Origin: Rhodanobacter sp.
GTDB lineage: Bacteria > Pseudomonadota > Gammaproteobacteria > Xanthomonadales > Rhodanobacteraceae
DNA length: 64,000 bases
Assembly (NCBI GenBank): GCA_024711345.1
Contig: JANJTA010000021.1
Coordinates: 62,001-126,000 of the forward strand
Reading direction: 5' to 3'
The notes under the pieces are model-generated. The model was not told where the DNA came from, did no database searches, and was given only the letters and a program-made list of their open reading frames with translations. The position numbers and the translations under genes were made by a program. This document shows, piece by piece, positions 36,233-57,039 of the stretch; position 1 is the stretch's first letter, and every line of letters starts with the position of its first letter.

Positions 36233-36241
36233 GATGCACGC

Positions 36242-36904
36242 ATGAAACGATCGAACGCCGACATCGTCCGCGAATACGGCCCTCTGCCGGGCGTCAGCCA
36301 GGTGCACGGGGTGAGCTGGGACGGCCACGACGTCTGGTTCGCCACCGGCGAGCAGCTGCACGCGCTGGACCCGGCCAGCGGCGCCACCCGGCGCACGCTC
36401 GAGGTCGCTGCCCGCGCCGGCACCGCGTTCGACGGCCGCCACCTGTACCAGATCGCCGACGAGCGCATCCAGCGCATCGACCCCGCGACCGGCCAGGTAC
36501 TGGGCAGCATCCCGGCGCCTGCCGGCGGCGACAACGCGGGACTGGCGTGGGCCGAGGGCATGCTGTGGCTGGGCCAGTACCGTCAGCGGCGCATCCTCCA
36601 GCTCGACCCGCACACCGGCGCGGTGCTGCGCACGATCGAATCCAACCGCTACGTCACCGGCGTCACCTGGGTCGAGCGCGAGCTGTGGCACGGCACCTGG
36701 GAGGACGAAGCCAGCGAGCTGCGCCACGTCGACGCCGACACCGGCGAGGTGCTGGAGAGCGTGGCGATGCCGCCGGGCATGGTGGTGTCGGGCCTGGAGT
36801 CCGACGGCGGCGGGCTGTTCTACTGCGGCGGCGGCAACAGCGGCCGACTGCGCGCGGTGCGCCGGCCCACGCGCGGGCTGGAAGACGAGGCCGCTTCTCG
36901 ATAG
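36242..36904 (+). CDS. Glutamine cyclotransferase-like beta-propeller protein
   Basis: A 220-residue protein with repeated propeller strands (GVSWDGHDVWFATGEQLHALDPASG, GTAFDGRHLYQIADERIQRIDPATG, GLAWAEGMLWLGQYRQRRILQLDPHTG, GVTWVERELWHGTWEDEASELRHVDADTG). This pattern is typical of glutamine cyclotransferase/YncE-like propellers. There is no signal peptide, so it is cytosolic, and it is short (four to five blades). Its stop codon forms part of a small hairpin (GATAG-AAAAA-CTATC) next to the conserved block upstream of the CoA-lyase gene. Confidence 0.78.
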   Translation: MKRSNADIVREYGPLPGVSQVHGVSWDGHDVWFATGEQLHALDPASGATRRTLEVAARAGTAFDGRHLYQIADERIQRIDPATGQVLGSIPAPAGGDNAGLAWAEGMLWLGQYRQRRILQLDPHTGAVLRTIESNRYVTGVTWVERELWHGTWEDEASELRHVDADTGEVLESVAMPPGMVVSGLESDGGGLFYCGGGNSGRLRAVRRPTRGLEDEAASR

Positions 36905-36924
36905 AAAAACTATCTTTTGAACAT
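36905..36924 (+). promoter_or_regulatory. Conserved promoter block, copy A (CitE-like operon)
   Basis: A 20-nt block matching AAAAACTANCNTNTGAACAT, 78 bases before the CitE-like start codon. It is identical at 17 of 20 positions to the block at 41357-41376 upstream of the TonB receptor of the same locus. A small inverted repeat (GATAG/CTATC, 36900-36914) overlaps its left end. Confidence 0.5.
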
Positions 36925-37002
36925 GCCGCACCGGCTCGATCGAGGCGACGGCATGCCGCACACTGCCGGCCATGACGAGAATGGCGACAAGCGGGCGACT
37001 CC

Positions 37003-37860
37003 ATGCGTAGCAAGCTGTTCGTGCCCGGCTCGCGGCCGGAGCTGTTCGCCAAGGCGCTGGCCGGCGACGCCGATGCGCTGTCGTTCGACCTGGAGGATGC
37101 GGTCGCCGAGGCGCGCAAGGCCGAGGCGCGCGCGATGGTGGCGGATTTCGTCGCCGGTGCGGCGGTGGCCCAGTCGGCCAAGCTCATCATCGTGCGCACC
37201 AATGCGCCGGATTCGCCACACTTCGGGGCGGACCTTGCCGCGCTCGCCCGCCCCGGCGTCACCCTGCTCAACCTGCCCAAGATCGAATCGCCGCAGGCCC
37301 TGCTCGACGCGGTGGCCGCGCTCGAGGCGGCGGAGCATGCGAACGCGGTGACGCACCCGATCGGCCTGCTGGTGAACATCGAGACGCCGCGCGCGCTGGC
37401 CGACGCCGCGCGCATCGCTGCAGCGCACCCGCGCGTGGCGGGACTGCAGCTGGGCCTGGGCGATCTGTTCGAGCCGTACGGCATCGACCGCACCGACCCG
37501 CGCAACGTGCACGCGGCGATGTTCGCCCTGCGCATGGCCGCGGCGCAGGCCGGCGTGTTCGCGATGGACGGCGCCTTCGCCGCGCTCGACGACGACGACG
37601 GCTACCGCGAGGAAGCGCGCATGGCGCGGCGGCTCGGCTTCATCGGCAAGAGCTGCGTGCATCCGCGCCAGGTGGCGCTGGCGAACGCGGCGTTCGCGCC
37701 GTCGGAGGCGGAGCTGGCGGCGGCGCGCCGGATCGTCGAGGCCGCGCAAGCCGCCGGCGCACAAGGGCGCGGCGCCTTCGTGGTCGACGGCCGGATGATC
37801 GACCCGCCCTTCCTGAAGCGCGCGCAGGCCCTGCTTGCTGCCGCACGGCGGCCGGGCTGA
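37003..37860 (+). CDS. CitE-like CoA-ester lyase (HpcH/HpaI aldolase/citrate lyase family)
   Basis: A 285-residue enzyme of the CitE group: RSKLFVPGSRPELFAKAL at the N terminus, the Mg-binding DLEDAV, LPKIESPQALL, VNIETPRALADAA, QLGLGDLFEPYGI and GKSCVHPRQV. This group cleaves beta-hydroxyacyl-CoA esters (citramalyl-, malyl-, beta-methylmalyl- or citryl-CoA) to a 2-oxo acid and an acyl-CoA, or does the reverse. Its stop overlaps the symporter start by one base (TGATG), so the two are translationally coupled. A class III CoA-transferase gene 11.5 kb downstream could supply the CoA ester. The exact substrate is not readable. Confidence 0.9.
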   Translation: MRSKLFVPGSRPELFAKALAGDADALSFDLEDAVAEARKAEARAMVADFVAGAAVAQSAKLIIVRTNAPDSPHFGADLAALARPGVTLLNLPKIESPQALLDAVAALEAAEHANAVTHPIGLLVNIETPRALADAARIAAAHPRVAGLQLGLGDLFEPYGIDRTDPRNVHAAMFALRMAAAQAGVFAMDGAFAALDDDDGYREEARMARRLGFIGKSCVHPRQVALANAAFAPSEAELAAARRIVEAAQAAGAQGRGAFVVDGRMIDPPFLKRAQALLAAARRPG

Positions 37861-40310
37861 TGCGCTGGCGCGAGGGCGTGGGCATCGCGCTTTCTTCCGG
37901 TCAGGCATCGCGCGCACTGCGTGCCTGGCTGGGCCTGCTGCTGCTTGCCGTGCTTGCGCCCGCGCCGGCGCAAAGCCTGGCGCCGCTGCGCAGCGGGCAA
38001 CTGCCGTCGCTGGAAACGGGCGCGCCGCTGCGCGACATCGCCGTCGTCGACGGTCGGCCACTGGCGCTTGCCGACGGCGAAGCCTGGCGTCTCGACCGCG
38101 CCGGCAAGGCATGGATCCGCCTGCCATGGCCAGCCGGCGCATCACCGGCCGCCCGCATCATCGACGACGGCACGCAGGCCTGGCTGCTGAGCGAAACGCC
38201 GGATACGCATGAAGTGACCGGCGTGGCCCGCCTGCACGCCAGCGACGAGCGGCTCCAGCTGCAACCGCTGCCGCCCTTGCCGACCCCGCTGCACGCGGTG
38301 CGCGGCGCCTGGGCCAACGACATCCTGTGGCTCGCCGGCCTCGGCGCGGACGGACGGGCGCAACTGCTGCAGCTGCAGACGAACGCGCCACAGCCGCGCT
38401 GGAACACGTTCGCCGGATGGCCCGGCGACGGCGCGCCCAGCTCGGCGGTCGCCCGCGCCGCGGCCGTGCTGGTCAGCGTGCCCGATCCTTCCGGCGCCAC
38501 CGAGAAACTGTGGCGCTGGAGCGCCGACGACGGCTGGAGCGAACGCGGCCAGGTGCCCGGCCGACTGCTGCCCGGTTCCGGCCATGCGCTGGGCCAGGCC
38601 AACGCGCTCTACCTGGTGCGCGACGACGGCACGCACGCGCAGGCGCCGGCCCGGCTGATGACTTTCCAGACCATCACCAGCGCTTGGGCCACCCTGCCGG
38701 GCGCCGCGCCCACCGGCGTGGTCGCCGCCGGCGCCTGGACCGACGGCCTGTTCTGGGCGCAACGCAGCGCCGACGGCACGCGCATCGACTTCGGCTACGC
38801 CAGCGTGCAGTCCAGCAAGCTGCTGTTGCGCTGGCTGGACTGGATCGTGCTCACGGTCTATCTGCTCAGCATGCTCGGCATCGGCCTGTATTTCTACCTG
38901 CGCGAGAAGCGCAACTCCACCGCCGGCTTCTTCGTCGGCGGGCGCAGCATCCCGTTCTGGGCTGCAGGCATCAGCCTGTACGCCACCAACACCAGCTCGA
39001 TCAGCTTCATCGCGATCCCGGCGAAGGCGTTCGAGACCAACTGGCAGTACCTCACCAACAACCTGATCGCGATCCTGGGACTGATGTTCGTGGCGGTGTG
39101 GATCGTGCCGCTGCTGCGCCGGCTCGATCTGATGAGCGTGTTCTCCTACCTGGAGACGCGCTTCCACCCCGCCATCCGCATGCTGGCCAGCGCGCTGTGC
39201 ATCGTGATGCAGATCGGCAGCCGGATGAGCGTGATCCTGTTCCTGCCGGCGCTGGCAATCGCCACCATCACCGGCATCGACGTGGTGTGGAGCGTGCTGA
39301 TCATGGGCGGGTTCACCATCCTGTACACCACGCTGGGCGGCATGAAGGCGGTGATCTGGACCGATTTCGTGCAGGTGTTCGTGATGTTCGGCGGCGCGCT
39401 GTTCGCGATCGGCTTCATCATCTGGAACATCCATGGCGGCGTGCCGGCGTTCGTCCACACGGCGATGGCCGAGCACAAGATGCACCTGCTCGATTTCAGT
39501 TTCGACCTGACCAAGGCGACGGTGTGGGGCTTCGTGTTCCTGGTGCTGTTCGACGTGGTGCTGACCTTCCCCAAGGACCAGGTCCTGATGCAGCGCATCC
39601 TCTCCACCCGCTCGGACAAGGAGGCCGGCCGCTCGGTGTGGACGTTCGCCGCGGTGATGATCCCCGGCGGCTTCATGTTCTACCTGATCGGCACGGCGCT
39701 GTGGGTCTACTACAAGTCGCACCCCGAGCGGCTGAACCCGACGTTGCCGATCGACGCCACCTTCCCGCTGTTCATCGCGGCCGAGCTGCCGATGGGCGTC
39801 ACCGGTCTGATCATCGCCGGCATCTTCGCCGCCGCGATGTCCACGCTGTCGAGCATCATCAACAGCGTGTCCACCCTGGCCTCGGTGGATTTCTACGAGA
39901 AGCTGGCAAGGAACCCGACGCCGAAGAAGAGCGTGCTGTTCGCCGAGATCACCGGCGTGGCGGTCGGGCTGGTGGCGATCGGTCTGGCCATCGTGCTGTC
40001 GCGCTTCGACATCCACTCGCTGTTCGACGTCTCGATCGAGCTGGCCGGCCTGCTCGGCGGCGGCTTCGCCGGCGCCTACACGCTGGGCATGTTCACCCGC
40101 CGCGCCAACGCACCGGGCGTGGCCATCGGCATCGGCTCCAGCATCTGCCTGACCGTGGTGGCGTGGTGGTTCAAGCTGGTCCACCCGTACTTCTACCTGG
40201 CCATCTCGATCCTGCTGTGCATCGTGATCGGTTACCTGGCCAGCCTGTGCTTCCCGGCCTCCACGCGCTCGCTGAAGGGGCTGACGATCTACGCCGATCG
40301 CACCGGCTGA
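37860..40310 (+). CDS. Beta-propeller / sodium:solute symporter fusion
   Basis: An 816-residue membrane protein. A signal sequence (about 18-40, ending APAQS) is followed by roughly 270 residues of propeller/kelch-like strands (LRDIAVVDGRPLALADGEAWRLD, LHAVRGAWANDILWLAGLGADG, VAAGAWTDGLFWAQ). From residue 320 there is a complete solute:sodium symporter core with 13 helices (GFFVGGRSIPFWAAGISLYATNTSSISFIAIPAKAFE, TLGGMKAVIWTDFVQVFVM, AAMSTLSSIINSVSTLASVDFY). The propeller would face the periplasm and may bind or isomerise the substrate before uptake. Translationally coupled to the CitE-like lyase, so the solute is probably related to the lyase pathway. Confidence 0.88.
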   Translation: MRWREGVGIALSSGQASRALRAWLGLLLLAVLAPAPAQSLAPLRSGQLPSLETGAPLRDIAVVDGRPLALADGEAWRLDRAGKAWIRLPWPAGASPAARIIDDGTQAWLLSETPDTHEVTGVARLHASDERLQLQPLPPLPTPLHAVRGAWANDILWLAGLGADGRAQLLQLQTNAPQPRWNTFAGWPGDGAPSSAVARAAAVLVSVPDPSGATEKLWRWSADDGWSERGQVPGRLLPGSGHALGQANALYLVRDDGTHAQAPARLMTFQTITSAWATLPGAAPTGVVAAGAWTDGLFWAQRSADGTRIDFGYASVQSSKLLLRWLDWIVLTVYLLSMLGIGLYFYLREKRNSTAGFFVGGRSIPFWAAGISLYATNTSSISFIAIPAKAFETNWQYLTNNLIAILGLMFVAVWIVPLLRRLDLMSVFSYLETRFHPAIRMLASALCIVMQIGSRMSVILFLPALAIATITGIDVVWSVLIMGGFTILYTTLGGMKAVIWTDFVQVFVMFGGALFAIGFIIWNIHGGVPAFVHTAMAEHKMHLLDFSFDLTKATVWGFVFLVLFDVVLTFPKDQVLMQRILSTRSDKEAGRSVWTFAAVMIPGGFMFYLIGTALWVYYKSHPERLNPTLPIDATFPLFIAAELPMGVTGLIIAGIFAAAMSTLSSIINSVSTLASVDFYEKLARNPTPKKSVLFAEITGVAVGLVAIGLAIVLSRFDIHSLFDVSIELAGLLGGGFAGAYTLGMFTRRANAPGVAIGIGSSICLTVVAWWFKLVHPYFYLAISILLCIVIGYLASLCFPASTRSLKGLTIYADRTG

Positions 40311-40405
40311 GTACCTTCGAGCACTCGCCGCGAGGCCGCCGGACACGGCATGATGGAAGCGACCGGCAGGCTCCGCTTAGCTGCCGCCCTGACCAGCGAG
40401 GCGCC

Positions 40406-41287
40406 GTGGAAACCCAGTTCCTGCACACCTTCATCACCATCGTCGACCAGGGCTCGATGGCGGCCGCCGCGCGCGTGCTGAACATCACGCCGGCGGCGGT
40501 GGCGCAGCAGATCCGCACGCTGGAGCGCGAGATCGGCGCCCCCCTGATCGCCCGCGTCGGCCGCACGGTCAGCGTCACCGAGGAGGGCTCGCGCATCCTG
40601 CAGCGCTCGCGCGACCTGCTGCGCCACGTGGCCGACCTGCGCAGCGTGGCGAACGAGAACGCGGTCTCCGGCGAGCTGCGCCTGGGCGCCTGCCCCACCG
40701 CGCTGGCCGGCATCCTGCCCGACGTGCTGGCGCGCATGGTCGACGCGTTTCCGCAGATCAACGTGTTCATCAAGCCCGGCTACTCGGCCGAGCTGTACCG
40801 CGCGGTGGAAGCCGGCGATCTCGACGCGGCGGTGGTGTTGCAGGCGCCGTTCGCGCTGCCCAAGACCTGCGAGTGGCTGCTGTTGCGCGAGGAACCGCTG
40901 ATCGTGCTGGCGCCGAAGAGCATGGCCGGGTGCGACCCGCACGAGCTGCTGGCGACCCAGCCGCTGATCCGCTACGACCGCAACCAGTGGGGCGGCCGCC
41001 AGGCCGACGAGTACCTGCGCGCCCACGGCATCGTGCCGCACGAGCGCTTCGAACTGAACGCACTCAACGCGATCGCCGTGATGGTCGACCGCGGCCTCGG
41101 CGTATCGCTGGTGCCGGACTGGGCACACCCGTGGCCGGAGGGCGTGCAGCTGGCGCGCATCCCGCTCCCCGCGCCGACGGTGCCGCGGCGCATCGGCATC
41201 GTGTGGTCGCGCTCCAGCGTGCGCGTGCGGCTGGTCACCGTGTTCCTGCAGGAAAGCCGCAAGGCGGTGCAGGCGCGCGCGTCCTGA
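40406..41287 (+). CDS. LysR-type transcriptional regulator
   Basis: A 293-residue LysR-family regulator. The N-terminal winged helix-turn-helix is FLHTFITIVDQGSMAAAARVLNITPAAVAQQIRTLEREIGAPLIARVGRTVSVTEEG, followed by a linker helix and a periplasmic-binding-protein-like effector domain (SGELRLGACPTALAGILPDVLARMVDAFP). It starts at GTG 40406 with a GCGAGG site upstream. It lies between the symporter gene and the TonB receptor gene. A dyad of LysR form (TTGCTT-N7-AAGCAA) lies at 41337-41355, just downstream. It probably controls this locus. Confidence 0.92.
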   Translation: METQFLHTFITIVDQGSMAAAARVLNITPAAVAQQIRTLEREIGAPLIARVGRTVSVTEEGSRILQRSRDLLRHVADLRSVANENAVSGELRLGACPTALAGILPDVLARMVDAFPQINVFIKPGYSAELYRAVEAGDLDAAVVLQAPFALPKTCEWLLLREEPLIVLAPKSMAGCDPHELLATQPLIRYDRNQWGGRQADEYLRAHGIVPHERFELNALNAIAVMVDRGLGVSLVPDWAHPWPEGVQLARIPLPAPTVPRRIGIVWSRSSVRVRLVTVFLQESRKAVQARAS

Positions 41288-41336
41288 GCCCGCCTGCCCG
41301 ACGCCGATGACGTTGATGTTGCGCCGCGGCAAACAT

Positions 41337-41355
41337 TTGCTTCGTTCGTAAGCAA
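41337..41355. promoter_or_regulatory. Dyad TTGCTT-N7-AAGCAA, candidate LysR-type operator
   Basis: A perfect 6-bp inverted repeat with a 7-base spacer, containing a T-N11-A arrangement (T41338, A41350). It lies in the 276-base gap between lysR and the TonB receptor gene, two bases from conserved block B. Half-site form and position fit binding by the adjacent LysR protein; this is inferred. Confidence 0.5.
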
Positions 41356-41356
41356 C

Positions 41357-41376
41357 AAAAACTAGCCTCTGAACAT
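41357..41376 (+). promoter_or_regulatory. Conserved promoter block, copy B (TonB receptor operon)
   Basis: AAAAACTANCNTNTGAACAT, matching copy A (36905-36924) at 17 of 20 positions. It lies 187 bases before the receptor start codon and two bases after the LysR-type dyad. The rest of the 276-base intergenic stretch (41288-41563) shows no other feature. Confidence 0.5.
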
Positions 41377-41563
41377 AGTCCGCGCTGGTTCATTGCGAAC
41401 GGCGAAGCGCATAGGCTCGCCCAGAATCACGCACAGGGCCGCCGACGCCGGGGAGGGCGCCGCGAATGAGACACACCCCAAACCGTTCGAAGACGCATTG
41501 CGCTGCATCGCGGCCACCGCTCCGCGCGGGCCGCGGCCACCCCACACCACGATGAGACCCGCC

Positions 41564-43825
41564 ATGATCAAGCCACTCTCCGCCGCGATCAGCAGCATCC
41601 TGCTGTTCTCGGCGATCCCGGCCGGCGCGCACGCGCAGGACGCCATGCCCACCGGCAACAGCGCCGCCGCGCAGGACGCCGCCACGCCGGACACCAAGAA
41701 GAAGGACGACAAGGTCGTCGACCTCAACCGCATCATCGTCACCGGCACGCGCACGCCCAAGGCGGTCGACGAGATCCCCGGCGCGATCACCGTGGTCTCG
41801 AAGGAAGAGCTCCAGCACACCCTGCTGGTAACCGAGGACGCCACCGCGGTGCTGGCGCGCTCGGTGCCGGGCTACGCGGAATCCTCGCAGGCGATGAGCA
41901 ACACCGGCGAGACGCTGCGCGGGCGCATCCCGCTGCGCCTGTTCGACGGCATTCCGCAGGGCTCGCCGCTGCGCGAGGGCACCCGCAACGGCACCTTCAC
42001 CGACATGGGCATCATCGGCCGCATCGAGGTGATCAACGGCCCGTCCGCCGCCGAGGGCATCGGCGCCGCCGGCGGCATCATCAACTACATCTCCAAGGTG
42101 CCCACCAAGGAAGGCGCCGAGACCACCTTCACCACCCGCTACCAGACCCAGGGCCACGGCGGCAGCGAAGGCTGGAAGACCGGCCTCACCTTCGCCGCCA
42201 AGCAGGACGCCTACGACGTGCTGCTGTCGGCCTCGTACATCGACCGCGGCATCTCCTACGACGGCAACGGCCGCCGCATCGGCATGAACACCAGCGGCTC
42301 GCTGGCCGACTCCACCTCGAAGAACCTGTTCCTCAAGGGCGGCTTCAACTTCGGCGCGGCCAACGAGCAGCGCCTGCAGGCGACCTACAGCCACTTCAAG
42401 ATCGAGGGCAAGGGCAACTACGTCCAGGTGCTGGGCTGCCGCGGCCCGGACGATGATCCGCCGTGCGACGTGCCGCGCACCAACACCTCGGAGAAGGGCC
42501 ACATCTTCGGTTCGAAGGACGCATTCAACGACTTCGAGCAGTACAGCCTGGCCTACAGCAACGCCGACTTCTTCGGCGGCGCGCTGGAGATCAACGTCTA
42601 CAAGGCCGACCAGGCGATGCGCTACCTGCCGGAGAACAGCTCGGACAAGCAGGATCCGCTGATCGCGCCGCTGGGCACGCTGTTCGACCAGTCGGAAATC
42701 GACTCGCACAAGAAGGGCATCCGCACCTCCTGGACCCGCTCCGACCTGTTCGACGTGAGCGGACTGGAGCTGCACACCGGCATCGACTTCGGCCGCGACA
42801 AGGCGCAGCAGCAGCTGGCGCTGACCAAACGCCTGTGGGTGCCGCCGATGAACTACAAGAGCACGGCGCCGTATGCCCAGCTGTCGTGGGACGTCGGCCC
42901 GGTGACCCTGAGCGGTGGCGTCCGCCGCGAGGACGACAAGCTCACCGTCAACAGCTACACCACCACGTACTACCGCAACCGCGTGTTCGTCGAGGGCGGC
43001 GGCGTGAAGTACACCAAGAACCTGAAGAACTTCGGCGCGATCTGGCGCATCGGCAGCGAATGGTCGCTGTTCGGCTCGTACAGCGAAGGCTTCACTTTGC
43101 CCAACATCGGCATCCCGCTGCGCAACATCAACGTGCCCGGGCAGTCGGTCAGCCGCATCCGCGACCTCGACGCGATCATCTTCAAGAACAGCGAACTCGG
43201 CTTCAACTGGCGCGGCGACCACGGTGCGTTCGGCGCCACCCACTACATCTCCAAGTCGCCGTTCGGCGCCTCGCTGGCGATCGACCCGAACACCAGCGAC
43301 TTCATCCTGACCCGTGCTCCGGTGCGCATCGAGGGTACCGAAGTCACCGGCGAGTGGCGCTTCTCGGATGCGTGGAAGGTGACCGGCCTGTACTCGCACA
43401 TCCGCGGCAAGACGGCGTTCTGGTCGGCCGACCCGGCCGGCCGCTACGGCGCCGGCGGACTCAACAAGCCGATGGGCGTGCTCGACATCAACCCGGACAA
43501 GTTCGCCGCCGCCGTGACCTGGAACTTCCTGCCCAATGCGGACGCCACGCTCGGCTTCACCTCGCTGTTCGGCCGCCACCTCCGCGGCAGCGACACGCGC
43601 GCCTACGACGGCCGCACCTTCAGCTACGACGAGCAGACCCACGGCTACACCCTGTTCGACCTCGGCGTGAACTACGACATGGCGCGCTACGGCAAGCTCT
43701 CGCTGGGCGTGGAGAACCTGTTCGACAAGCAGTACATCCTCAGCTGGTCGCAGCTTGCCGGCTACCAGAACTACTGGGCCGGCCGTGGTCGCATGACCTC
43801 GGTGACGTATACGATCACGTTCTGA
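41564..43825 (+). CDS. TonB-dependent receptor of the catabolic locus
   Basis: A 753-residue outer-membrane receptor. The signal peptide is MIKPLSAAISSILLFSAIPAGAHAQ. An N-terminal acidic/Lys tether is followed by the TonB box/plug region (RIIVTGTRTPKAVDEIPGAITVVSKEEL, GIIGRIEVINGPSAAEGIGAAGGIINYISK) and a barrel ending in SVTYTITF with the terminal Phe. The plug style resembles siderophore/cobalamin-type receptors, but the gene lies with glycosidase and CoA-ester genes, so a plant-derived organic ligand is more likely. ATG 41564 is preferred over ATG 41552 because it begins the signal peptide cleanly. Confidence 0.93.
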   Translation: MIKPLSAAISSILLFSAIPAGAHAQDAMPTGNSAAAQDAATPDTKKKDDKVVDLNRIIVTGTRTPKAVDEIPGAITVVSKEELQHTLLVTEDATAVLARSVPGYAESSQAMSNTGETLRGRIPLRLFDGIPQGSPLREGTRNGTFTDMGIIGRIEVINGPSAAEGIGAAGGIINYISKVPTKEGAETTFTTRYQTQGHGGSEGWKTGLTFAAKQDAYDVLLSASYIDRGISYDGNGRRIGMNTSGSLADSTSKNLFLKGGFNFGAANEQRLQATYSHFKIEGKGNYVQVLGCRGPDDDPPCDVPRTNTSEKGHIFGSKDAFNDFEQYSLAYSNADFFGGALEINVYKADQAMRYLPENSSDKQDPLIAPLGTLFDQSEIDSHKKGIRTSWTRSDLFDVSGLELHTGIDFGRDKAQQQLALTKRLWVPPMNYKSTAPYAQLSWDVGPVTLSGGVRREDDKLTVNSYTTTYYRNRVFVEGGGVKYTKNLKNFGAIWRIGSEWSLFGSYSEGFTLPNIGIPLRNINVPGQSVSRIRDLDAIIFKNSELGFNWRGDHGAFGATHYISKSPFGASLAIDPNTSDFILTRAPVRIEGTEVTGEWRFSDAWKVTGLYSHIRGKTAFWSADPAGRYGAGGLNKPMGVLDINPDKFAAAVTWNFLPNADATLGFTSLFGRHLRGSDTRAYDGRTFSYDEQTHGYTLFDLGVNYDMARYGKLSLGVENLFDKQYILSWSQLAGYQNYWAGRGRMTSVTYTITF

Positions 43826-43892
43826 GTCGGACGTGACGACATACCGGCCGCGACGCCCCACCCGGGCGCCGCGGCCGCGGCGAGGAAACCCG

Positions 43893-45212
43893 ATGGGCGA
43901 GGTTCGCAGCACGCTTACATACACGCGCCGCTCCCGCTGGTTGGTGACGTTGGCGACCGTGCTGCTGTGCGTTGGCCTGCCCGCAACCGCTGTTGCGGCG
44001 ACACCGCTGCCCGAAGCCCGTCCCGAGGCGCAGGGCGTGTCGTCCGCGCGACTGCAGCGCCTGCACGACTTCATGCGCCAGGCCACCGGCGCCGACGGCT
44101 ACCTCGGCGGCGTCACCCTGCTGGCGCGCAACGGCCGCATCGTGGACTGGCAGGCGTACGGCCACCGCGACCTCGCGCGTCGCGTGCCGATGCGCAGGGA
44201 CGCCATCTTCCGCATCTACTCGATGACCAAGACGGTGACCTCGGTCGCGGTGATGCTGCTGGTGGAGGAAGGCAAGCTCGCCCTGGACGATCCGCTGTCG
44301 CGCCACCTGCCCGGCTTCGCCGCGCCGCAGGTGCTGATCGGCGGCAGCATCGACGCGCCGAAGCTGCGACCGGCCGACAAGCCGGTCACCCTGCACGCGC
44401 TGCTCACCCACACCGCCGGTTATCCCGCCGGCCGCAAGGGCGACGAGCTGGCGCTCACGCTGATGGAGCGCATCGACCCGCACGGCGCGGCCGACCTGCG
44501 CGGCTTCGCCGAACGCATGCGCCGCGTGCCGCTGGCCGCCGACCCCGGCACCCGCTTCGGCTACGACGGCGCCTCGCTGGAATTGCTGGCGCGGGTGGTC
44601 GAGGTGGTCTCGGGGCAGTCGTTCGAGAGCTTCCTGCAGCAACGCATCTTCGAGCCGCTGCAGATGCGCGACACCGGTTTCCACGTGCCGGCGGCGCAGC
44701 GCTCGCGCGTGGTGGACCTTACCCGCATGAACGCGCACGGCCGGCTGGAACTCGCCGACACTCTCAGCGCCAGGCATCCGGGCGAGCCGCTGAATGCGTA
44801 CGCCAGCGGCGCCGGCGGCCTGTATTCCACCGCCGGCGACTACGCCCGCTTCGCGCAGATGCTGCTGGACGGCGGCACGCTGGACGGCCACCAGCTGCTG
44901 GGCCGCAAGACGGTGGAGCTGATGCTGCGCAACCATCTCGGCATGCTCGACCCGCCGGTCACCCAGTTCAGCGACGCCGAGGGCTTCGGCCTCGGCGGTT
45001 ACGTGGTGCTGGACCCGGCCCGGCGCGGCCAACTCGGTTCGCCGGGCCAGTTCGGCTGGAGCGGCGCGGCCTCGACCAGCTTCAGCATCGACCCGCACGA
45101 ACACCTGCTGATGATCCTGCTGCTGCAGCACCTGCCGCGCGACGATGGCGGCAAGGAGCTGCCGCGGATCAGCCGCAATTTCTACGATCTGGTCTACCAG
45201 GCGCTGCCATGA
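43893..45212 (+). CDS. Exported class C beta-lactamase-type serine hydrolase (probable esterase)
   Basis: A 439-residue exported protein with a signal around residues 15-38 (WLVTLATVLLCVGLPATAVAA). The serine beta-lactamase/esterase fold has nucleophile Ser110 and Lys113 in IYSMTKTVTS, FGYDGASLELL in the Tyr position, and a late GWSGAASTSFSI in place of KTG. Such proteins without a KTG box are usually esterases or D-peptidases, not antibiotic-hydrolysing enzymes. A GAGGAAA site precedes ATG 43893. It lies 67 bases after the TonB receptor gene, so it may cleave an ester on the imported compound. Confidence 0.86.
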   Translation: MGEVRSTLTYTRRSRWLVTLATVLLCVGLPATAVAATPLPEARPEAQGVSSARLQRLHDFMRQATGADGYLGGVTLLARNGRIVDWQAYGHRDLARRVPMRRDAIFRIYSMTKTVTSVAVMLLVEEGKLALDDPLSRHLPGFAAPQVLIGGSIDAPKLRPADKPVTLHALLTHTAGYPAGRKGDELALTLMERIDPHGAADLRGFAERMRRVPLAADPGTRFGYDGASLELLARVVEVVSGQSFESFLQQRIFEPLQMRDTGFHVPAAQRSRVVDLTRMNAHGRLELADTLSARHPGEPLNAYASGAGGLYSTAGDYARFAQMLLDGGTLDGHQLLGRKTVELMLRNHLGMLDPPVTQFSDAEGFGLGGYVVLDPARRGQLGSPGQFGWSGAASTSFSIDPHEHLLMILLLQHLPRDDGGKELPRISRNFYDLVYQALP

Positions 45213-45243
45213 CTTCGCCACGCACGGCGTTACCGAGTACCCG

Positions 45244-47415
45244 ATGAACACCGACTCCGCTTCCCCCGATACCCCAGCCACCCCGCCCGTGCGCCACGAG
45301 TTCAAGTTCTCGCACGTCACCACCGGCCGCTACCTGCCCGTGCCGGGCAAGGCGCCGGGCTGGCCGTTCGCCGAGATCGGCCACTGGAAGACGGACGTGG
45401 ACGGCTGCGTCGACGACTGGGTGCGCGAGCTCACCGACTGGCGCCGCGAGCACCTCGTGCGCATCGGCTACGACGACGCCAACTACCGCCGCCCCGAACT
45501 GCAGTGGGCGCAGCGCAACTTCGTGCACGCGCAGATGATGGTGGAGGATCGTTATTTCTACGATCCGGTCGCCGGCCGCTACACCGTCGACCGCTACCTG
45601 GACGATCTGGAAGCACGCTACGGCGGCATCGACAGCGTGCTGATCTGGTTCGTCTACCCCAACATCGGCCTCGACGACCGCAACAAGACCGACCTGGCGC
45701 ACGACCTGCCCGGCGGTCTCGCCGGCCTGAAGAGCGCGGTGGACGACTTCCACCGCCGCGGCGTGCGCGTGTTCCTGCCCACCATGCCGTGGGACCACGG
45801 CACGCGCGAGCCGGAGCAGAACGACTGGCAGGCGATCGCCGGACTGGTCAAGGCGGTCGGCGCCGACGGCATCAACGGCGATACCTACAACGGCGTGCCG
45901 CGCGCCTTCTTCGACGCCTGCGACGCGCTCGGCTGCCCGGTGGTGCTGCAGCCCGAATCCACCATCAGTTCCGAGGAACAGCTGATCTGGAACGTGCAGA
46001 GCTGGGGCAAGAAGGCGCCGAACGAGCCGATCCCGCCGGTAGCCAAGTGGAAGTGGCTGGAGCCGCGCCACATGATCAACTACGAGAACCGCTGGGGCCG
46101 CGACCGCAACCACGACCTGCAGTACATCTTCTTCAACGGCATCGGCTACAACGCTTGGGAAAACGTCTGGGGCATCTGGAACCAGCTCACCCCGCGCGAC
46201 GCGGAGACGCTGCGCCGGATCGCCGCGATCGAGCGGCAGTTCGCGCCCGCGCTGGTCAGCCGCGACTGGCGCCCCTACGAGCGCACGCTGCAGGCCGGCG
46301 TGTTCGCCAGCCGCTTCCCGACCGACGCCTTCACGCTGTGGACGCTGGTCAACCGCAACGAGTACGCGGTGGACGGCGAGCAGATCGCGCTGCCGCACCA
46401 TGACGGCACGCAGTACTACGACGCCTGGCACGGTGTGCCGCTGCAGCCGCGGCTGGAGGACGGCCGTGCGGTGTTCGACTTCGCGCTGGAAGGCCGCGGC
46501 TTCGGCGCGCTGCTGGCGCTGGCGCCCGGCGCCGCGATCGACGGCCTCGACGCCTTCCTCGCGCGCATGCGCGAGCGCGCCGCGGTGCCGCTCGGCTCGC
46601 TGTCGGCCCAGTGGCGTTCGCTGCCGCAGCAGCTGGTGCCGATCGTGCCCACCCGCCGCGCCACCGAAGCCCCGCCCGGCATGCTGACGATTCCCGCCGG
46701 CGCGTTCGACTTCGTGGTCGGCGGCGTCGAGATCGAAGGCCAGACCTGGGAAGGCAACGACGTGCAGTACCCGTGGGAGGACAGCGCGCGCCGCCACCAC
46801 CGCCACCGGCTGCAGATGCACGCGTTCTTCATCGACCGCACGCCGGTGACCAATGCGCAGTTCCGCGAATTCCTCGACGCCAGCGGCTGGCGTCCGCGCG
46901 ACCCGCACAACTTCCTGCGCCACTGGATCGACGGCGCGCCGCCGCCGGGCTGGGAGTACAAGCCGGTAACCTGGGTGTCGATCGAGGACGCACGTGCCTA
47001 CGCCGCCTGGGCCGGCAAGCGCCTGCCGCACGAATGGGAATGGCAGGTTGCCGCGCAGGGCCACGACGGCCGCCGCTACCCGTGGGGCAACGACTGGGAT
47101 GCGTCGATGGTGCCCGCCGTCAACCGCGGCCGCACGCTGACCGCACCGGCCGACGTCGACGCGCACCCGGCCGCGGCCAGCCCGTTCGGCCTGCTCGACC
47201 TGGTCGGCAACGTCTGGCAGTGGACCGACGAATACGCCGACGAGCACACCCGCGCCGCGATCCTGCGCGGCGGCAGCAGCTACCAGCCGCAGACTTCGCA
47301 CTGGTATTTCCCGCAGGCCTACCGGCTCGACCAGCACGGCAAGTACCTGCTGATGGCGCCGAGCAAGGACCGCTCCGGCAGCGTCGGCTTCCGCTGCGTG
47401 GTGGACGCGGCATGA
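45244..47415 (+). CDS. TIM-barrel glycosidase-like / SUMF1-domain fusion
   Basis: A 723-residue cytosolic protein without signal peptide. Residues 10-400 look like a glycosidase TIM barrel (DSVLIWFVYPNIGLDDR, VRVFLPTMPWDHGTREPEQ, VGADGINGDTYNGVP, PESTISSEEQL), with catalytic carboxylates likely among these Asp/Glu. Residues 400-470 form a beta domain. Residues 478-722 form a SUMF1/formylglycine-generating-enzyme-like domain (IPAGAF, FFIDRTPVTNAQFREFL, AWAGKRLPHEWEWQVAA, LLDLVGNVWQWTDEY, RGGSSYQPQT). The two redox cysteines of true FGE are absent, since SSYQPQTSHWY stands there. No known family is claimed for the barrel. Its stop overlaps the GH127 start. Confidence 0.75.
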   Translation: MNTDSASPDTPATPPVRHEFKFSHVTTGRYLPVPGKAPGWPFAEIGHWKTDVDGCVDDWVRELTDWRREHLVRIGYDDANYRRPELQWAQRNFVHAQMMVEDRYFYDPVAGRYTVDRYLDDLEARYGGIDSVLIWFVYPNIGLDDRNKTDLAHDLPGGLAGLKSAVDDFHRRGVRVFLPTMPWDHGTREPEQNDWQAIAGLVKAVGADGINGDTYNGVPRAFFDACDALGCPVVLQPESTISSEEQLIWNVQSWGKKAPNEPIPPVAKWKWLEPRHMINYENRWGRDRNHDLQYIFFNGIGYNAWENVWGIWNQLTPRDAETLRRIAAIERQFAPALVSRDWRPYERTLQAGVFASRFPTDAFTLWTLVNRNEYAVDGEQIALPHHDGTQYYDAWHGVPLQPRLEDGRAVFDFALEGRGFGALLALAPGAAIDGLDAFLARMRERAAVPLGSLSAQWRSLPQQLVPIVPTRRATEAPPGMLTIPAGAFDFVVGGVEIEGQTWEGNDVQYPWEDSARRHHRHRLQMHAFFIDRTPVTNAQFREFLDASGWRPRDPHNFLRHWIDGAPPPGWEYKPVTWVSIEDARAYAAWAGKRLPHEWEWQVAAQGHDGRRYPWGNDWDASMVPAVNRGRTLTAPADVDAHPAAASPFGLLDLVGNVWQWTDEYADEHTRAAILRGGSSYQPQTSHWYFPQAYRLDQHGKYLLMAPSKDRSGSVGFRCVVDAA

Positions 47416-49259
47416 GCGCATCGCCCGCCCCGCGGGTGCGGCTCGACGGCCTGCTCGGCGAGGCGCTGGCCGCCAACCTGCGCGGCCGGCTCGCGCACTT
47501 CATCGTCGACGAGCACAGCCCGGCGATCGCGCTGTTCGCGCCGCAGCGGCGCCACGAAAACCGCGAGGGCGACTGGTACGGCGAGCACGCCGGCAAGTGG
47601 CTGGTGGCCGCCGCGAAGGCGGCCGCACGCAACGGCGATGCGGCGCTGCGCGCGAACGTGCTGCGCGTCGCCGACTACCTGGTGTCGATCCAGGAGGCCG
47701 ACGGCTACCTCGGCACCTACGCGCCGGACCACCGCTTCATGCGCCCGCAGCCGCCGAAGCCCATCAGCTGGGACGGCGCGCCCAGCGTGCGCACCTGGGA
47801 CATCTGGACGCATGCCTACCTGCTTCTCGGCCTGCTCGAAGTGCATCGGCATTTTCCCGCGCCGCGCTACCTCGATGCCGCGCGCCGGATCGGCGACCTG
47901 TGCTGGCACACGCTGACCGACGGCGGCATCGACATCACCGAGCTCGGCAACCATCACGGCCTGTCCGCCACGGTGCTGATGGACCCGGCCGTCGAGCTGT
48001 ACTTCGCCACCGGCGAGCCGCGTTACCTCGAACTGGCGCAGCGCGTGCTGCGGCAGGCCGACGACCATCGCGAGCTGGCCCTGCTCACCCGTGCGCTGGA
48101 GGGCACCGACGTCGCCGCCATCGCCACCGGCAAGGCCTACCAGCTGGCGTGGAACCTGGTCGGCCTGGCCAAGCTGCACCGCGCCACCGGCAACGCGGAC
48201 TACCGCCGCGCGGTGGAACTCGCCTGGCACAGCATCCGCGCGCACCATCTGACCCTGGGCGGTGGCCCGTGGGGCGGCGTGGGCCACCGCTCGCGCGAGG
48301 TGTTCAATCCGGCCGGCGTGTTCAGCCCGTACGGCTACGTCGAGACCTGCTCGTCGCTGGCGTGGATCCAGCTGAACCGCGAGCTGCTGGCGATCACCGG
48401 CGAGGCGCGCTACGCCGAGGAGATCGAACGCACCGCCTATAACGACCTGCTCGGTGCGCAGGCGCCCAACGGCAAGGACTGGTGCTACTACGTGTTCCCG
48501 AACGGCCGCCGCGTGCACACCACCTACTGGCGCTGCTGCAAGTCCAGCGGCGCGATGGCGCTGGAGGAACTGCCCGCGCTCGCCTATGCGCAGGCTGCCG
48601 ACGGCAGCGTCACGGTGAACCTCTACGGCCCCGGCGTAGCGCGCTTCGCGCTGGCCGGCGGCGGCGAGCTGAGCATCACCCAGCACACCGCCTACCCGTA
48701 CCCCGGCGACGTCCGGCTGCGCCTCGCCGGTGCGCCGACGATGCGCTTCGCGCTGAAGCTGCGCATCCCGTCGTGGGCCGACGGTGCCGCGCTGGCGGTC
48801 AACGGCGAGGATGCCGCCGTCGCGCTGACGCCGGGTCAATACGCCGTGCTCGACCGCGCATGGCACGACGGCGACGAGCTGGTGGCGCGCTTCCCGATGC
48901 AGCCGCGGTTGCACCGCGCGGTCAACCGCAACGTGCAGGAATCGCGCGCCCCCGACGGCAGCGAAGTGCGCCAGGAAGTGCTGCACTTCGAGTACGCCGC
49001 GATCACCTGCGGCCCGCTGGTCTACGCCACCGGGCTGATCGACGGCTTCAAGCTCGAGGAGACCCTGCGCCTGCCCGCCGCGCCGCCGGAGCGATGGCTG
49101 GCGCTGCAGCCCGCGCACGCCGACGGCGTGCCGCGGATCGCGCTGGACCCCGGCTATCGCGCACCGCTGGAGTTCACCCCGTACTTCGCCACCGGCGGCC
49201 GCGTCGACGGCAGTTGGCGACTGAGCTGGCTGTCGCTCGCCCCGGAGCCGCCGGCGTGA
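47412..49259 (+). CDS. GH127 beta-L-arabinofuranosidase-like glycosidase
   Basis: A 615-residue cytosolic (alpha/alpha)6-barrel enzyme of the GH127/DUF1680 family. In HypBA1 a Glu, three Cys and a zinc ion form the active site. Here Glu311 and Cys313 (YVETCSSLAW) and Cys375-Cys376 (TTYWRCCKSSGAM) reproduce the E-x-C ... CC pattern. WDIWTHAYLLLGLLE and ENREGDWYGEHAGKWL are substrate-barrel segments. It would release L-arabinofuranose or a related furanoside in the cytosol. Translation is coupled (ATGA) to the preceding TIM-barrel/SUMF1 gene, suggesting joint action on one compound. Confidence 0.9.
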   Translation: MSASPAPRVRLDGLLGEALAANLRGRLAHFIVDEHSPAIALFAPQRRHENREGDWYGEHAGKWLVAAAKAAARNGDAALRANVLRVADYLVSIQEADGYLGTYAPDHRFMRPQPPKPISWDGAPSVRTWDIWTHAYLLLGLLEVHRHFPAPRYLDAARRIGDLCWHTLTDGGIDITELGNHHGLSATVLMDPAVELYFATGEPRYLELAQRVLRQADDHRELALLTRALEGTDVAAIATGKAYQLAWNLVGLAKLHRATGNADYRRAVELAWHSIRAHHLTLGGGPWGGVGHRSREVFNPAGVFSPYGYVETCSSLAWIQLNRELLAITGEARYAEEIERTAYNDLLGAQAPNGKDWCYYVFPNGRRVHTTYWRCCKSSGAMALEELPALAYAQAADGSVTVNLYGPGVARFALAGGGELSITQHTAYPYPGDVRLRLAGAPTMRFALKLRIPSWADGAALAVNGEDAAVALTPGQYAVLDRAWHDGDELVARFPMQPRLHRAVNRNVQESRAPDGSEVRQEVLHFEYAAITCGPLVYATGLIDGFKLEETLRLPAAPPERWLALQPAHADGVPRIALDPGYRAPLEFTPYFATGGRVDGSWRLSWLSLAPEPPA

Positions 49260-49289
49260 TCCGCCCGCCCTGCCGAACGGCAGCCGTCA

Positions 49290-49315
49290 CACAAGAATTT
49301 GTGGCGCCAGAACAT
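49290..49315 (+). promoter_or_regulatory. Candidate promoter block, copy C (CoA-transferase gene)
   Basis: CACAA-N4-TTGTG (49290-49303) is followed six bases later by GAACAT (49310-49315) and then AGCCGC. The GAACATAG(T)CCGC core matches copy B, and like A and B it has an inverted repeat just upstream, though the arms differ. It lies 67 bases before the CoA-transferase start. The similarity is weaker than between A and B. Confidence 0.35.
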
Positions 49316-49382
49316 AGCCGCTTCGCCTGTTTCTTCACCAGGGCATGGTGCAGAGTGGCCCGCAGCATCCACCCCGATCCCC

Positions 49383-50600
49383 ATGGACGCGCCGCGCATG
49401 GAAACCCCACCGCCTGAGTCGAAAGCCGCCCACCAGGGCCCACTGGCCGGCGTGCGCGTGCTGGACCTGAGCGCCTACATCGCCGGCCCTTACGCCTGCT
49501 CGCTGCTGGCCGACCAGGGTGCCGACGTGATCAAGGTCGAGCCACCCGACGGTGACAACCTGCGCCAGTACCCGTCCACCTTGCCCCGCGAAAGCCGCGC
49601 CTTCCTCGGCGTGAACCGCAGCAAGCGCGGCATCGTGCTCGACCTCAAGCGCGCGGGCGACCATGCCGTCCTGCTCAAGCTGGTGCGCGACGCCGACGTG
49701 CTGGTGCACAACTTCCGCCCGGGCGTGCCCGAGCGGCTCGGCATCGGCCACGAGCAGCTGAACCCGATCAACCCGCGGCTGGTCTATTGCGCGATCACCG
49801 GCTACGGCGACAGCGGCCCGCTGAAGGACAAGGCCGGCTACGACCAGGTGCTGCAGACCATGACCGGCATGTGCACGCTGCAGGGCAAGCGCGGCGGGCC
49901 GCCGGAGATCATCTACGGCTCGGTGGTCGACTACTACGCCGCGGCGCTGCTGGCGGCGGGGGTGTCCTCCGCGCTGTACGAGCGCGAGCGCAGCGGGCTG
50001 GGCCAGTTCGTCGGCGTGTCGCTGCTGCGCAGCGCGCTGACCATGCAGTCGGCGCGGATGATCTGGGCCGAGGGCGAGTCGCTCGACATCGGCCGCGACA
50101 TGCGCTCCGGCGGCGTCACCGGCATCCACCCCACGCGCGAGGGCTGGATCTACATCTCGGCCAACACGCCGCGCTTCTGGAAGGCGCTGTGCGCGAAGAC
50201 CGGCCTCGACGCGCTGGCCGCCGAGCCGCGCTACGACAGCGTGCGCAAGCGCGCGCAGCACTTCGCCGAGATCCTGCCGCCGCTGCATGCGGCGCTGGCC
50301 GCACGCAGCGCGCTGGAGTGGGAGGCGCTGTTCGGCGACGAGGTACCCTGCGCCGCGGCGCGCCGCATCGAGGACATGTTCGACCACCCGCAGGTGCAGG
50401 CGCAGGGCATCATCGACACCTTCGAGCATCCGGTAGTGGGCCGTTACCGCGGCGTCGCGCAGTCGATCCGCTTCGGCCGCACGCCGGGGCCGGCGCCGTT
50501 TGCCGCGCCCGTGCTCGGCCAGGACACCGCACAGGTGATCGCCGCGGTCGATGCCGGCGCGCCGATCGCCCCCAAGCCGCGCGGCCGGCGCAAGGCCTGA
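49383..50600 (+). CDS. Class III (CaiB/Frc-type) CoA-transferase
   Basis: A 405-residue family III CoA-transferase. GPLAGVRVLDLSAYIAGPYACSLLADQGADVIKVEPPDGD at the N terminus and the catalytic Asp154 in KAGYDQVLQTMTGM are diagnostic; FRPGVPERLGIGHEQL and GEVPCAAARRIEDMF-like segments complete the fold. Members move CoA between organic acids (formyl/oxalate, succinyl/itaconate, mesaconate, citramalate and so on). With the CitE-like lyase it can make a two-step route: activation of a hydroxy acid, then cleavage to a 2-oxo acid and an acyl-CoA. ATG 49383 is used; ATG 49398 is also possible. Confidence 0.9.
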   Translation: MDAPRMETPPPESKAAHQGPLAGVRVLDLSAYIAGPYACSLLADQGADVIKVEPPDGDNLRQYPSTLPRESRAFLGVNRSKRGIVLDLKRAGDHAVLLKLVRDADVLVHNFRPGVPERLGIGHEQLNPINPRLVYCAITGYGDSGPLKDKAGYDQVLQTMTGMCTLQGKRGGPPEIIYGSVVDYYAAALLAAGVSSALYERERSGLGQFVGVSLLRSALTMQSARMIWAEGESLDIGRDMRSGGVTGIHPTREGWIYISANTPRFWKALCAKTGLDALAAEPRYDSVRKRAQHFAEILPPLHAALAARSALEWEALFGDEVPCAAARRIEDMFDHPQVQAQGIIDTFEHPVVGRYRGVAQSIRFGRTPGPAPFAAPVLGQDTAQVIAAVDAGAPIAPKPRGRRKA

Positions 50601-50725: not shown

Positions 50726-50790
50726 GCCATGGCATGTAGCAGGCGGAGCGGCCGGATCGTCCGGTGGTCGTCGCCGGCGGGAAGTTGCGT

Positions 50791-51426
50791 ATGATGGTTC
50801 CCCATCCAGCCGTTGCCGAGGTAGCGCCCTTCCGGGCGAAACGAGTCGTGGCCCCTCCCGCGAGCAACGCCACTCCCGATGCGCAGTACTGGTCGATGCA
50901 GATGGCGGCCGTGTCGGCGCAGCGCGACCGCGCCAGCTTCATGCGCATCTACGATCATTTCGCGCCGCGGCTGCAGCGCTACCTGCGCAACCTGGGCGTG
51001 GCCGAGTCGCTCGCCGACGAACTGGTGCAGGAGGCACTGCTGACGCTGTGGCGCAAGGCCGGCCTGTTCGATCCGGCGCGGGCCAGCCTGGCCACCTGGC
51101 TGTACCGCGTGGCGCGCAATCTGTACATCGACCAGGTGCGGCGCGAGCCGCACTGGCTGCCGATCCAGGAAGGACTGGACCGGCTGGACCTTGCCGAGTC
51201 CGACCGGCGCGACTCGGCGCCCGAATCGCTGATCGACCAGGACGCGCTGAAGCAGGCGATCGACCGGCTGCCCGCCGTGCAGGCCAAGCTGGTGCGCATG
51301 TGCTACCTCGAAAGCAAGAGCCACAGCGAAATCGCGCGCGAGCTGGACATGCCGCTGGGCTCGGTCAAATCCTCGCTGCGGCGTGCCTTCGCGAAGCTGC
51401 AGGGCAGCATGGGGGGCGCGCGATGA
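50791..51426 (+). CDS. rpoE: ECF sigma factor RpoE (ChrR-controlled group)
   Basis: A 211-residue extracytoplasmic-function sigma factor with only regions 2 and 4: FMRIYDHFAPRLQRYLRNLGVAESLADELVQEALLTLWRKAGLFDPARASLATWLYRVARNLYIDQVRR (core and -10 binding) and LKQAIDRLPAVQAKLVRMCYLESKSHSEIARELDMPLGSVKSSLRRAFAKLQ (-35 binding). The following gene encodes a ChrR anti-sigma factor, which places it in the singlet-oxygen/organic-peroxide-responding group. ATG 50791 is chosen for its GGGAAG site; an upstream GTG at 50764 is in frame. It is preceded by its own ECF-type promoter. Confidence 0.94.
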   Translation: MMVPHPAVAEVAPFRAKRVVAPPASNATPDAQYWSMQMAAVSAQRDRASFMRIYDHFAPRLQRYLRNLGVAESLADELVQEALLTLWRKAGLFDPARASLATWLYRVARNLYIDQVRREPHWLPIQEGLDRLDLAESDRRDSAPESLIDQDALKQAIDRLPAVQAKLVRMCYLESKSHSEIARELDMPLGSVKSSLRRAFAKLQGSMGGAR

Positions 51427-52085
51427 AACCGAACCACCATCTCGACGATGCCACCCTGCTCAGCTATTCCGCCGGCGCACTGCCGACGGCGTTGGCGGTG
51501 GTCGCCGCCACCCACCTGGAGCGCTGCGCGGCGTGCCGTGCGCGCCTGCTCGACGCCGACCGGATCGGCGGCGTACTGATGCAGCAGCAGCGCATCGACG
51601 CGCCCGCCGACGATGCGCGCGCCGCCATGCTGGCGCTGCTGGACGCCGAGCCGGCGACCGCACCGGCGGCCATGCCGGCCGACCTCATGGAGGAAGCCGA
51701 CCCGGACCGGCTGCCGGCCGCGCTGCAGCCGTGGTTCGGCCACTCGCTGCGCGCGCTGCGCTGGAAACGCGTGGCGCCCGGCGTGCAGCGCATCCGCGCC
51801 GGCAGCATCGCCGGCGGCGAGCTGATGCTGCTGCGCATCGCGCCCGGCAGCAAGTTGCCGCTGCACAGTCATGGCGGCAACGAGCTGACCGTGATCCTGG
51901 ACGGCGCCTACGACGACATGCTCGGCCACTTCGGCCCCGGCGACGTGGCCGACCTGGACGGCCAGACCCAGCACCAGCCGGTGACGTCGCCCGGCGTGCC
52001 GTGCATCTGCGTGGCCGCGACCGATGCGCCGCTCAAATTCTCCGGCTGGGTCGCCCGCACGCTGCAGCCGCTGTTCGGTTTCTGA
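51423..52085 (+). CDS. chrR: Zinc anti-sigma factor ChrR
   Basis: A 220-residue cytosolic anti-sigma factor. The N-terminal zinc domain has His6, His31, Cys35 and Cys38, the same residue numbers as the zinc ligands of Rhodobacter sphaeroides ChrR. The C-terminal cupin has His148, His150, Glu154 and His184, the Rhodobacter ligands (141, 143, 147, 177) shifted by exactly seven. ChrR holds RpoE inactive until singlet oxygen or organic peroxide triggers its proteolysis. It starts in an ATGA overlap with rpoE. Confidence 0.95.
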   Translation: MKPNHHLDDATLLSYSAGALPTALAVVAATHLERCAACRARLLDADRIGGVLMQQQRIDAPADDARAAMLALLDAEPATAPAAMPADLMEEADPDRLPAALQPWFGHSLRALRWKRVAPGVQRIRAGSIAGGELMLLRIAPGSKLPLHSHGGNELTVILDGAYDDMLGHFGPGDVADLDGQTQHQPVTSPGVPCICVAATDAPLKFSGWVARTLQPLFGF

Positions 52086-52116
52086 GCGCCGTGCTGCTCC
52101 GGCGGAGCACAAGCCG

Positions 52117-53532: not shown

Positions 53533-53618
53533 AACCAGGCACGCAGCGCCGGGGTAACTTCCGGAGCCGGCGCAGCGAATGGAATGACTCACGCGCTCAT
53601 CCAGGACACGGAGCCTCC

Positions 53619-55372: not shown

Positions 55373-55373
55373 C

Positions 55374-55862: not shown

Positions 55863-55888
55863 GCGTCTCTCCCGGTAGTGATGATCGG

Positions 55889-57038: not shown

Positions 57039-57039
57039 G

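Follow-up and report, generated by a model that had tools for sequence, protein, structure and literature searches.

A conserved Rhodanobacter locus that may degrade an esterified ribofuranoside carrying a hydroxy-acid

The locus beside described systems

TonB-dependent carbohydrate-utilisation loci bring together a TonB receptor, an exported hydrolase, an inner-membrane transporter, cytosolic glycosidases and a regulator. The same parts occur in a locus of Rhodanobacter sp. that we analysed within a stretch of 64,000 nucleotides (GenBank assembly GCA_024711345.1, contig JANJTA010000021.1, positions 62,001 to 126,000), referred to as the window. The window has a G+C content of 70.5% and belongs to a genome of 3.8 Mb in 41 contigs. 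An earlier note, made from the sequence alone, had placed eight genes at 36905-50600, and Pfam searches found all of them there on the + strand. Unlike TonB-dependent carbohydrate-utilisation loci, this locus has a dedicated CoA-transferase and CoA-ester lyase, and a fusion protein with a domain that has no Pfam family. The locus has a CoA-transferase and a CitE-like lyase in common with the itaconate/citramalate pathway, which consists of a CoA-transferase, a hydratase and a citramalyl-CoA lyase, but no hydratase was seen in the cluster and the pair is tied to uptake and glycosidase genes. A full-text search of the open-access literature found no description of such a system. Our analysis suggests, with about even confidence, that the locus may encode the regulated import and breakdown of an esterified D-ribofuranoside carrying a hydroxy-dicarboxylic acid.

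The glycoside hydrolase family 127 (GH127) protein, encoded at 47412..49259 (+), shares its Pfam domains (PF07944 6.8e-41 and PF20736 1.8e-21, both above cut-off) with the beta-L-arabinofuranosidases HypBA1 (PDB 3wkw) and PDB 6ex6. The Glu-x-Cys and Cys-Cys motifs (E311, C313, C375 and C376) were invariant in 18/18 aligned orthologues; these motifs are assigned to zinc binding and to the cysteine nucleophile (PMC10728902). The locus protein differs from these enzymes in being distant (best solved match 6.8e-31) and in its setting of ribokinase and CoA enzymes, and it may act on ribose. The CitE-like lyase of the HpcH/HpaI family (37003..37860, +) belongs with malyl-CoA lyase (PDB 4l9y) and Rv2498c (PDB 6aq4). 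Its residues E127 and D154, invariant in 13/13 aligned sequences, were equated with Glu112 and Asp138 of Rv2498c (PMC6689899) by motif and not from a printed alignment. Malyl-CoA lyases were the nearest in profile search (9.4e-62), nearer than Rv2498c, and the protein scored under the NCBIfam cut-offs of citE (179.6 vs 443.4 bits) and RipC_Ccl (147.5 vs 375 bits). The match to PF03328 (5.8e-38) and the conserved metal-binding Glu and Asp place it among the beta-hydroxyacyl-CoA lyases in the broad sense. The fusion protein (45244..47415, +) joins a TIM-barrel domain to a C-terminal SUMF1/FGE-like domain (PF03781 1.2e-35). It resembles formylglycine-generating enzymes (FGE, SUMF1) in this match and differs from them in the attached barrel and in the GGSSYQPQTSHW loop, from which the cysteine was absent in 18/18 aligned sequences. 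We take this loop to be the FGE active-site position, with its paired active-site cysteines, the register having been judged by eye.

Conservation of the gene set and of a shared cis element

Orthologues of the fusion protein, the CitE-like lyase and the CoA-transferase were sought in 299 genomes of the order at E<=1e-40, E<=1e-60 and E<=1e-140, respectively; these cut-offs were chosen to separate orthologues, so the co-occurrence covers orthologues and not paralogues. All three were found in an identical set of 31/299 genomes, including that of the window. Presence within the genus itself was patchy (2/14 genomes in the order sample), and the closest named relatives at the locus, by fusion protein identity, were Rhodanobacter lindaniclasticus (93%) and R. 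glycinis (88%). The other 30 genomes supplied 30 orthologous stretches of 15.7-20 kb each. The genes for the sodium:solute symporter (SSS), LysR, the TonB receptor, the fusion protein, GH127 and the CoA-transferase were each present in 30/30, and the beta-lactamase-fold gene in 28/30. CitE was present in 25/30; in the remaining five the sequence stops short of the gene or inside it, and a genome search found CitE in all.

A wider sample of 82 loci was made up of the best 80 of 140 relatives and two plasmids, some of them clipped by contig ends. Roseateles and Pelomonas are represented, as are two Verrucomicrobia (L143 and L144), a plasmid of Sphingopyxis (L063) and one of Spirosoma (L064). All 82 loci had the fusion gene; CaiB was present in 79, the TonB receptor and GH127 in 78 each, SSS in 77, LysR in 75, RbsK and the beta-lactamase-fold gene in 71 each, and CitE in 68, with CaiB and RbsK matches just 28-38% identical in the two Verrucomicrobia. 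On the Spirosoma plasmid the sole cluster gene was a 35% identical fusion homologue (L064:15869-18043) in another setting. Since its neighbours are GH28, ThuA, GH36 and PhyH genes, the fusion family is broader than the pathway. Distance-matrix correlations between cluster genes ranged from 0.29 to 0.78 (48/78 loci with all nine genes, LysR left out), a spread too uneven to claim that the genes always move as a set.

Two copies of a cis element stand at the heads of both transcription units. The block AAAAACTANCNTNTGAACAT is exact at 36905 and 41357, against a chance expectation of 0.01 in the window (<=3 mismatches). Copy 1 (36905..36924, +, 0 mismatches to the AAAACTA-N5-TGAACAT core) lies 98 bp upstream of the CitE start, and copy 2 (41357..41376, +, 0 mismatches) lies 195 bp upstream of the gene for the TonB-dependent outer-membrane receptor (41552..43825, +, start at 41552 or 41564; PF00593 8.9e-26, PF07715 2.4e-10). 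Genome-wide, the 14-letter core had two exact copies, both at the locus, and four other places with two mismatches; the reversed control gave 0. A scan of 78 orthologous loci (1.64 Mb) at <=1 mismatch gave 73 copies, with 50 ahead of the TonB receptor, 23 ahead of CitE, no copies at other positions and 0 in the reversed control. The block was exact in 34/62 scored regions before the TonB receptor and in 7/64 before CitE, where at least 12/14 letters were kept in 31/64 regions compared to 1/640 shuffles. It was not at both places in every locus. The T-N11-A spacing within the block agrees with what we take to be the LysR box, making it a candidate site for the LysR-type regulator of the locus (40406..41287, +, GTG start; LysR_substrate PF03466 4.7e-38, PF00126 6.3e-18).

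An inverted repeat, TTGCTT-N7-AAGCAA, was also considered as a possible regulator site (41337..41355, +). It is exact and single in the window, where ~7 matches are expected by chance at <=3 mismatches. Among 62 orthologous intergenic regions it was exact in 6/62, and 38/62 kept 6-8 of the 12 letters (shuffled mean 7.3). It was rejected as a general operator, as most regions are near the shuffled mean.

Because of co-occurrence, synteny and the common cis element, the CoA arm belongs with the glycoside arm, and the comparisons support the locus as a dedicated syntenic module that includes the CoA enzymes. The earlier note had made its reading depend on synteny and co-regulation and had raised the possibility that the CoA enzymes serve an unrelated pathway. 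Synteny held in the 30 stretches and the 82 loci, and presence in the same 31/299 genomes as the fusion protein argues that the CoA enzymes are dedicated to the module. The shared promoter blocks that it had described are real, with two exact copies that are conserved at the same places in orthologues; co-regulation, checked as common regulatory sequence only, thus survived as a prediction.

Within the locus, one base is common to CitE and SSS, and the GH127 start lies four bases ahead of the end of the fusion open reading frame (ORF). A codon-position G+C scan alone recovered 6/8 genes, with LysR and GH127 missed. Upstream, helix-turn-helix and propeller genes (35012-36904) are probably not members, being unmatched in the 30 stretches and in the 82 loci, although many of these stop shortly past CitE and 8/82 extend ~1.5 kb or more beyond it. 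Downstream, 50764-58338 (+) holds genes for an ECF sigma factor, a photolyase, a catalase-like protein, cytochrome b561, a fatty acid desaturase and a flavin amine oxidoreductase, perhaps a light or oxidative stress set. The ECF sigma and photolyase genes were matched in just 1/82 loci, and their membership was not supported.

Additional genes occur in some relatives. A ThuA and cytochrome c protein, with domains assigned by Pfam from the L052 copy only, is encoded between the fusion gene and GH127 in 7/30 stretches (L052:12122-14950; L039, L044, L051, L053, L054 and L058) and represents a possible periplasmic oxidation step. In 3/30, the SSS and LysR genes are separated by a PhyH-family oxygenase gene in the reverse orientation (L052:4534-5364 (-); L047 and L058). 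In Opitutus, two adjacent ORFs adjoining GH127 (L144:5759-7660, +) match the two halves of a sulfatase, possibly one broken gene.

Sugar, glycosidases, ester and acid

A PfkB kinase gene lies ahead of the fusion gene in 26/30 stretches. Ribokinase (TIGR02152) was the best NCBIfam model for the in-cluster kinases, with scores of 254.7 and 264.0 bits for the two examined and 260.9 for that of L143, and the next family scored ~100 bits, a second ribokinase model aside. The kinase beside the L161 cluster scored 318.3 bits, above the TIGR02152 cut-off. The four stretches without an in-cluster kinase, like the window, come from genomes with a ribokinase elsewhere (the G291 copy is under the cut-off).

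The comparison of GH127 with ADP-ribosylglycohydrolases covered nine genomes, and four of its five GH127-less clusters come from one genus. No GH127 was found, in the cluster or elsewhere, in these four low-GC genomes (G770, G775, G761 and G728), two of which are <80% complete. ADP-ribosylglycohydrolase-family genes adjoin CitE divergently in G770 and G728 and lie past one further ORF of ~2 kb in G775, while those of G761 are on a short contig of their own. In the Didemnitutus cluster (L143, G962), the ribokinase-like gene has beside it a homologue of the shorter ADP-ribosylglycohydrolase, with 53-56% identity. No ADP-ribosylglycohydrolase was found in G000, G516, G795 and G963, the four tested genomes with a cluster GH127. 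Replacement in two distant lineages suggests a common reaction on a ribosyl bond. Because a ribokinase-type gene is a usual member and an ADP-ribosylglycohydrolase is found where the cluster GH127 is absent, a D-ribofuranoside is the predicted substrate. The sugar is probably ribose rather than arabinose, at about even confidence for ribose itself. In G770, CitE was matched as two pieces with a shortened ORF (L161:17642-18489 (-)), which suggests a frameshift in the assembly or in the gene.

The N-terminal 457 residues of the fusion protein of the window gave no Pfam match even at E<=10, and the domain had no credible PDB profile match. The full fusion was poorly modelled by AlphaFold (pLDDT 53.6), and the N-terminal domain alone gave a pLDDT of 75.8 and a pTM of 0.81. 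Foldseek matched this model weakly to GH13 and GH27 enzymes, with E values starting at 4.3e-10; across the 50 matches listed, TMq ran from 0.22 to 0.51. Glycosidases of the GH13/GH27 type have a barrel with acidic residues where strands 4, 5 and 7 end. In the fusion protein, D191, E216 and E284 (N-terminal domain numbering) were invariant in 7/7 aligned sequences, including a 31% identical Spirosoma homologue. The domain may be a glycosidase of a new family.

The class-C beta-lactamase-fold hydrolase (43893..45212, +; PF00144 2.8e-69) is predicted to be exported and is probably an esterase. Its nearest solved relatives include esterases, and its YSMxK motif was invariant in a 48-locus alignment. 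The gene was not found in four sphingomonad-order clusters (L149, L160, L163 and L166), which have a carboxylesterase-like gene within the cluster or at its edge, confirmed by Pfam in the two tested (L149 4.4e-80, L163 3.1e-76). These carboxylesterase genes in clusters without the beta-lactamase-fold gene support the ester step. By N-terminal hydropathy, a simple measure and not a signal-peptide predictor, export is predicted for the TonB receptor in 30/30 and for the beta-lactamase-fold protein in 25/28, and a cytosolic location for the fusion protein (0/30 hydrophobic) and GH127 (2/30). The symporter (37860..40310, +; PF00474 4e-43, TIGR00813 225 bits, cut-off 184) has an exported N-terminal domain with a weak likeness to a kelch mutarotase (NanM model, 5.8e-4).

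Class III CoA-transferases use a catalytic Asp. The CaiB protein of the locus (49383..50600, +) falls in this class by its match to PF02515 (5.7e-118) and its Asp motif, which was GYD or GFD in 14/16 aligned sequences and GFG in two Verrucomicrobia. Its nearest solved relatives are formyl-CoA and 3-hydroxy-3-methylglutaryl (HMG) CoA-transferases, and the models for succinate-glutarate, mesaconate and oxalate gave it about equal scores, each far under its cut-off. The fusion gene of Didemnitutus and Opitutus is followed immediately by genes for the lyase and for another class III CoA-transferase, an arrangement that links the acid step with the fusion enzyme even though the transferase is not the same. 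These two transferases (L143:12975-14294 and L144:12825-14261) fall in a separate subgroup and share 27-30% identity with the window protein. Malate would enter central metabolism without activation by CoA; it was set aside by this inference and a branched acid was favoured. An acid of the citramalate or 3-hydroxy-3-methylglutarate type is plausible, at somewhat less than even confidence. Rv2498c, a relative of the lyase, is reported to prefer (R)-HMG-CoA and (S)-citramalyl-CoA over malyl-CoA, and its authors describe function assignment in this family by bioinformatics alone as unreliable (PMC6689899).

Proposed pathway and alternatives

The activity inferred for each enzyme, set within the gene set, unit conservation, co-occurrence and cis element read from the sequence, suggests the following scheme. 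The TonB receptor would bring the compound into the periplasm, where the beta-lactamase-fold hydrolase would take off the acyl ester, and the SSS protein would move the remaining small glycoside into the cytosol. There, the TIM/SUMF1 protein and GH127 would cut two glycosidic bonds, with GH127 freeing ribose. A ribokinase, encoded in the cluster in most relatives and elsewhere in the window genome, would then give ribose 5-phosphate. The CoA-transferase would place CoA onto the freed acid and the CitE-like lyase would split the product into acetyl-CoA and an oxo-acid, with LysR controlling both transcription units. The earlier note had proposed ester hydrolysis, furanoside removal, and activation and splitting of the acid. 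The families and predicted locations fit that order of events; its emphasis on an arabinoside gave way, as the usual presence of a ribokinase gene in the cluster and the ADP-ribosylglycohydrolases that take the place of GH127 point to a D-ribofuranoside. Of its two glycosidase-like proteins, GH127 was confirmed and the second proved also to bear the SUMF1/FGE-like domain, which it had not named. Its propeller-fused Na+ symporter stood as an SSS-family protein, with the weak NanM match for the propeller part.

Several observations weigh against a ribofuranoside module. Known GH127 enzymes act on beta-L-arabinofuranosides, and the sole GH127 of the Didemnitutus genome G962 is on another contig, with a second ADP-ribosylglycohydrolase. 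The in-cluster kinases (255-264 bits) fall under the TIGR02152 ribokinase cut-off of 299.65. The ribokinases found elsewhere in kinase-less genomes are a weak point, because 22/26 genomes with an in-cluster kinase own another one elsewhere too. CaiB and CitE both lie far under every NCBIfam cut-off. Since the beta-lactamase-fold gene is missing in 2/30 stretches (L052 and L053) and unmatched in four low-GC clusters, the ester step is not universal. For the fusion protein, support for a glycosidase fold is weak at the TMq values given above for the 50 matches listed, and E284 lies in a low-pLDDT stretch of the model.

The locus could instead serve beta-L-arabinofuranosides, with GH127 freeing L-arabinose from an acylated plant glycoside, the CoA enzymes processing the acid and the kinase belonging to another pathway. 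The GH127 fold and zinc-cysteine motif would suit this, and characterised GH127 enzymes act on such substrates (PMC10728902). With no arabinose-specific gene seen in the annotated clusters, a ribokinase-type gene in 26/30 stretches and ADP-ribosylglycohydrolase-family genes where the cluster GH127 is absent, we regard an arabinofuranoside as unlikely. The locus might also salvage a riboside of nucleoside-like or cofactor-derived origin, in which ribose sits on a nitrogen. The same ADP-ribosylglycohydrolase-family and ribokinase partners would suit it, but nucleobase and phosphate genes are absent from the common core, and GH127 together with a GH13/GH27-like barrel suggests O-glycosides; an N-riboside is therefore very improbable. 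Improbable too is a sugar-acid route ending in unusual steps, in which the CoA arm acts not on an attached acid but on one formed from the sugar or the aglycone once they have been separated. The ThuA/cytochrome c protein (7/30) and the PhyH oxygenase (3/30) indicate that some members may add oxidation, yet both genes are optional and the common core is without a dehydrogenase or dehydratase.

Our preferred reading remains the esterified D-ribofuranoside with its hydroxy-acid. In its most far-reaching form it would describe a widespread pathway for an environmental ribofuranoside with a branched hydroxy-acid, in which GH127 is a cysteine-nucleophile D-ribofuranosidase replaceable by ADP-ribosylglycohydrolases, the TIM/SUMF1 protein is the first member of a new family of glycoside hydrolases, and one regulon salvages both halves, by ribokinase on one side and CoA-transferase and lyase on the other. 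We offer this combination tentatively, as possible rather than probable. If true, it would mean that many Xanthomonadales, together with some Burkholderiales, sphingomonads and Verrucomicrobia, use an unrecognised natural compound. GH127 would gain a further specificity, a new family of glycosidases would be indicated, and CoA-transferase/CitE pairs would acquire a concrete metabolic setting. With the conserved cis element and the co-occurring genes as guides, reporter or growth screens can search for the substrate directly.

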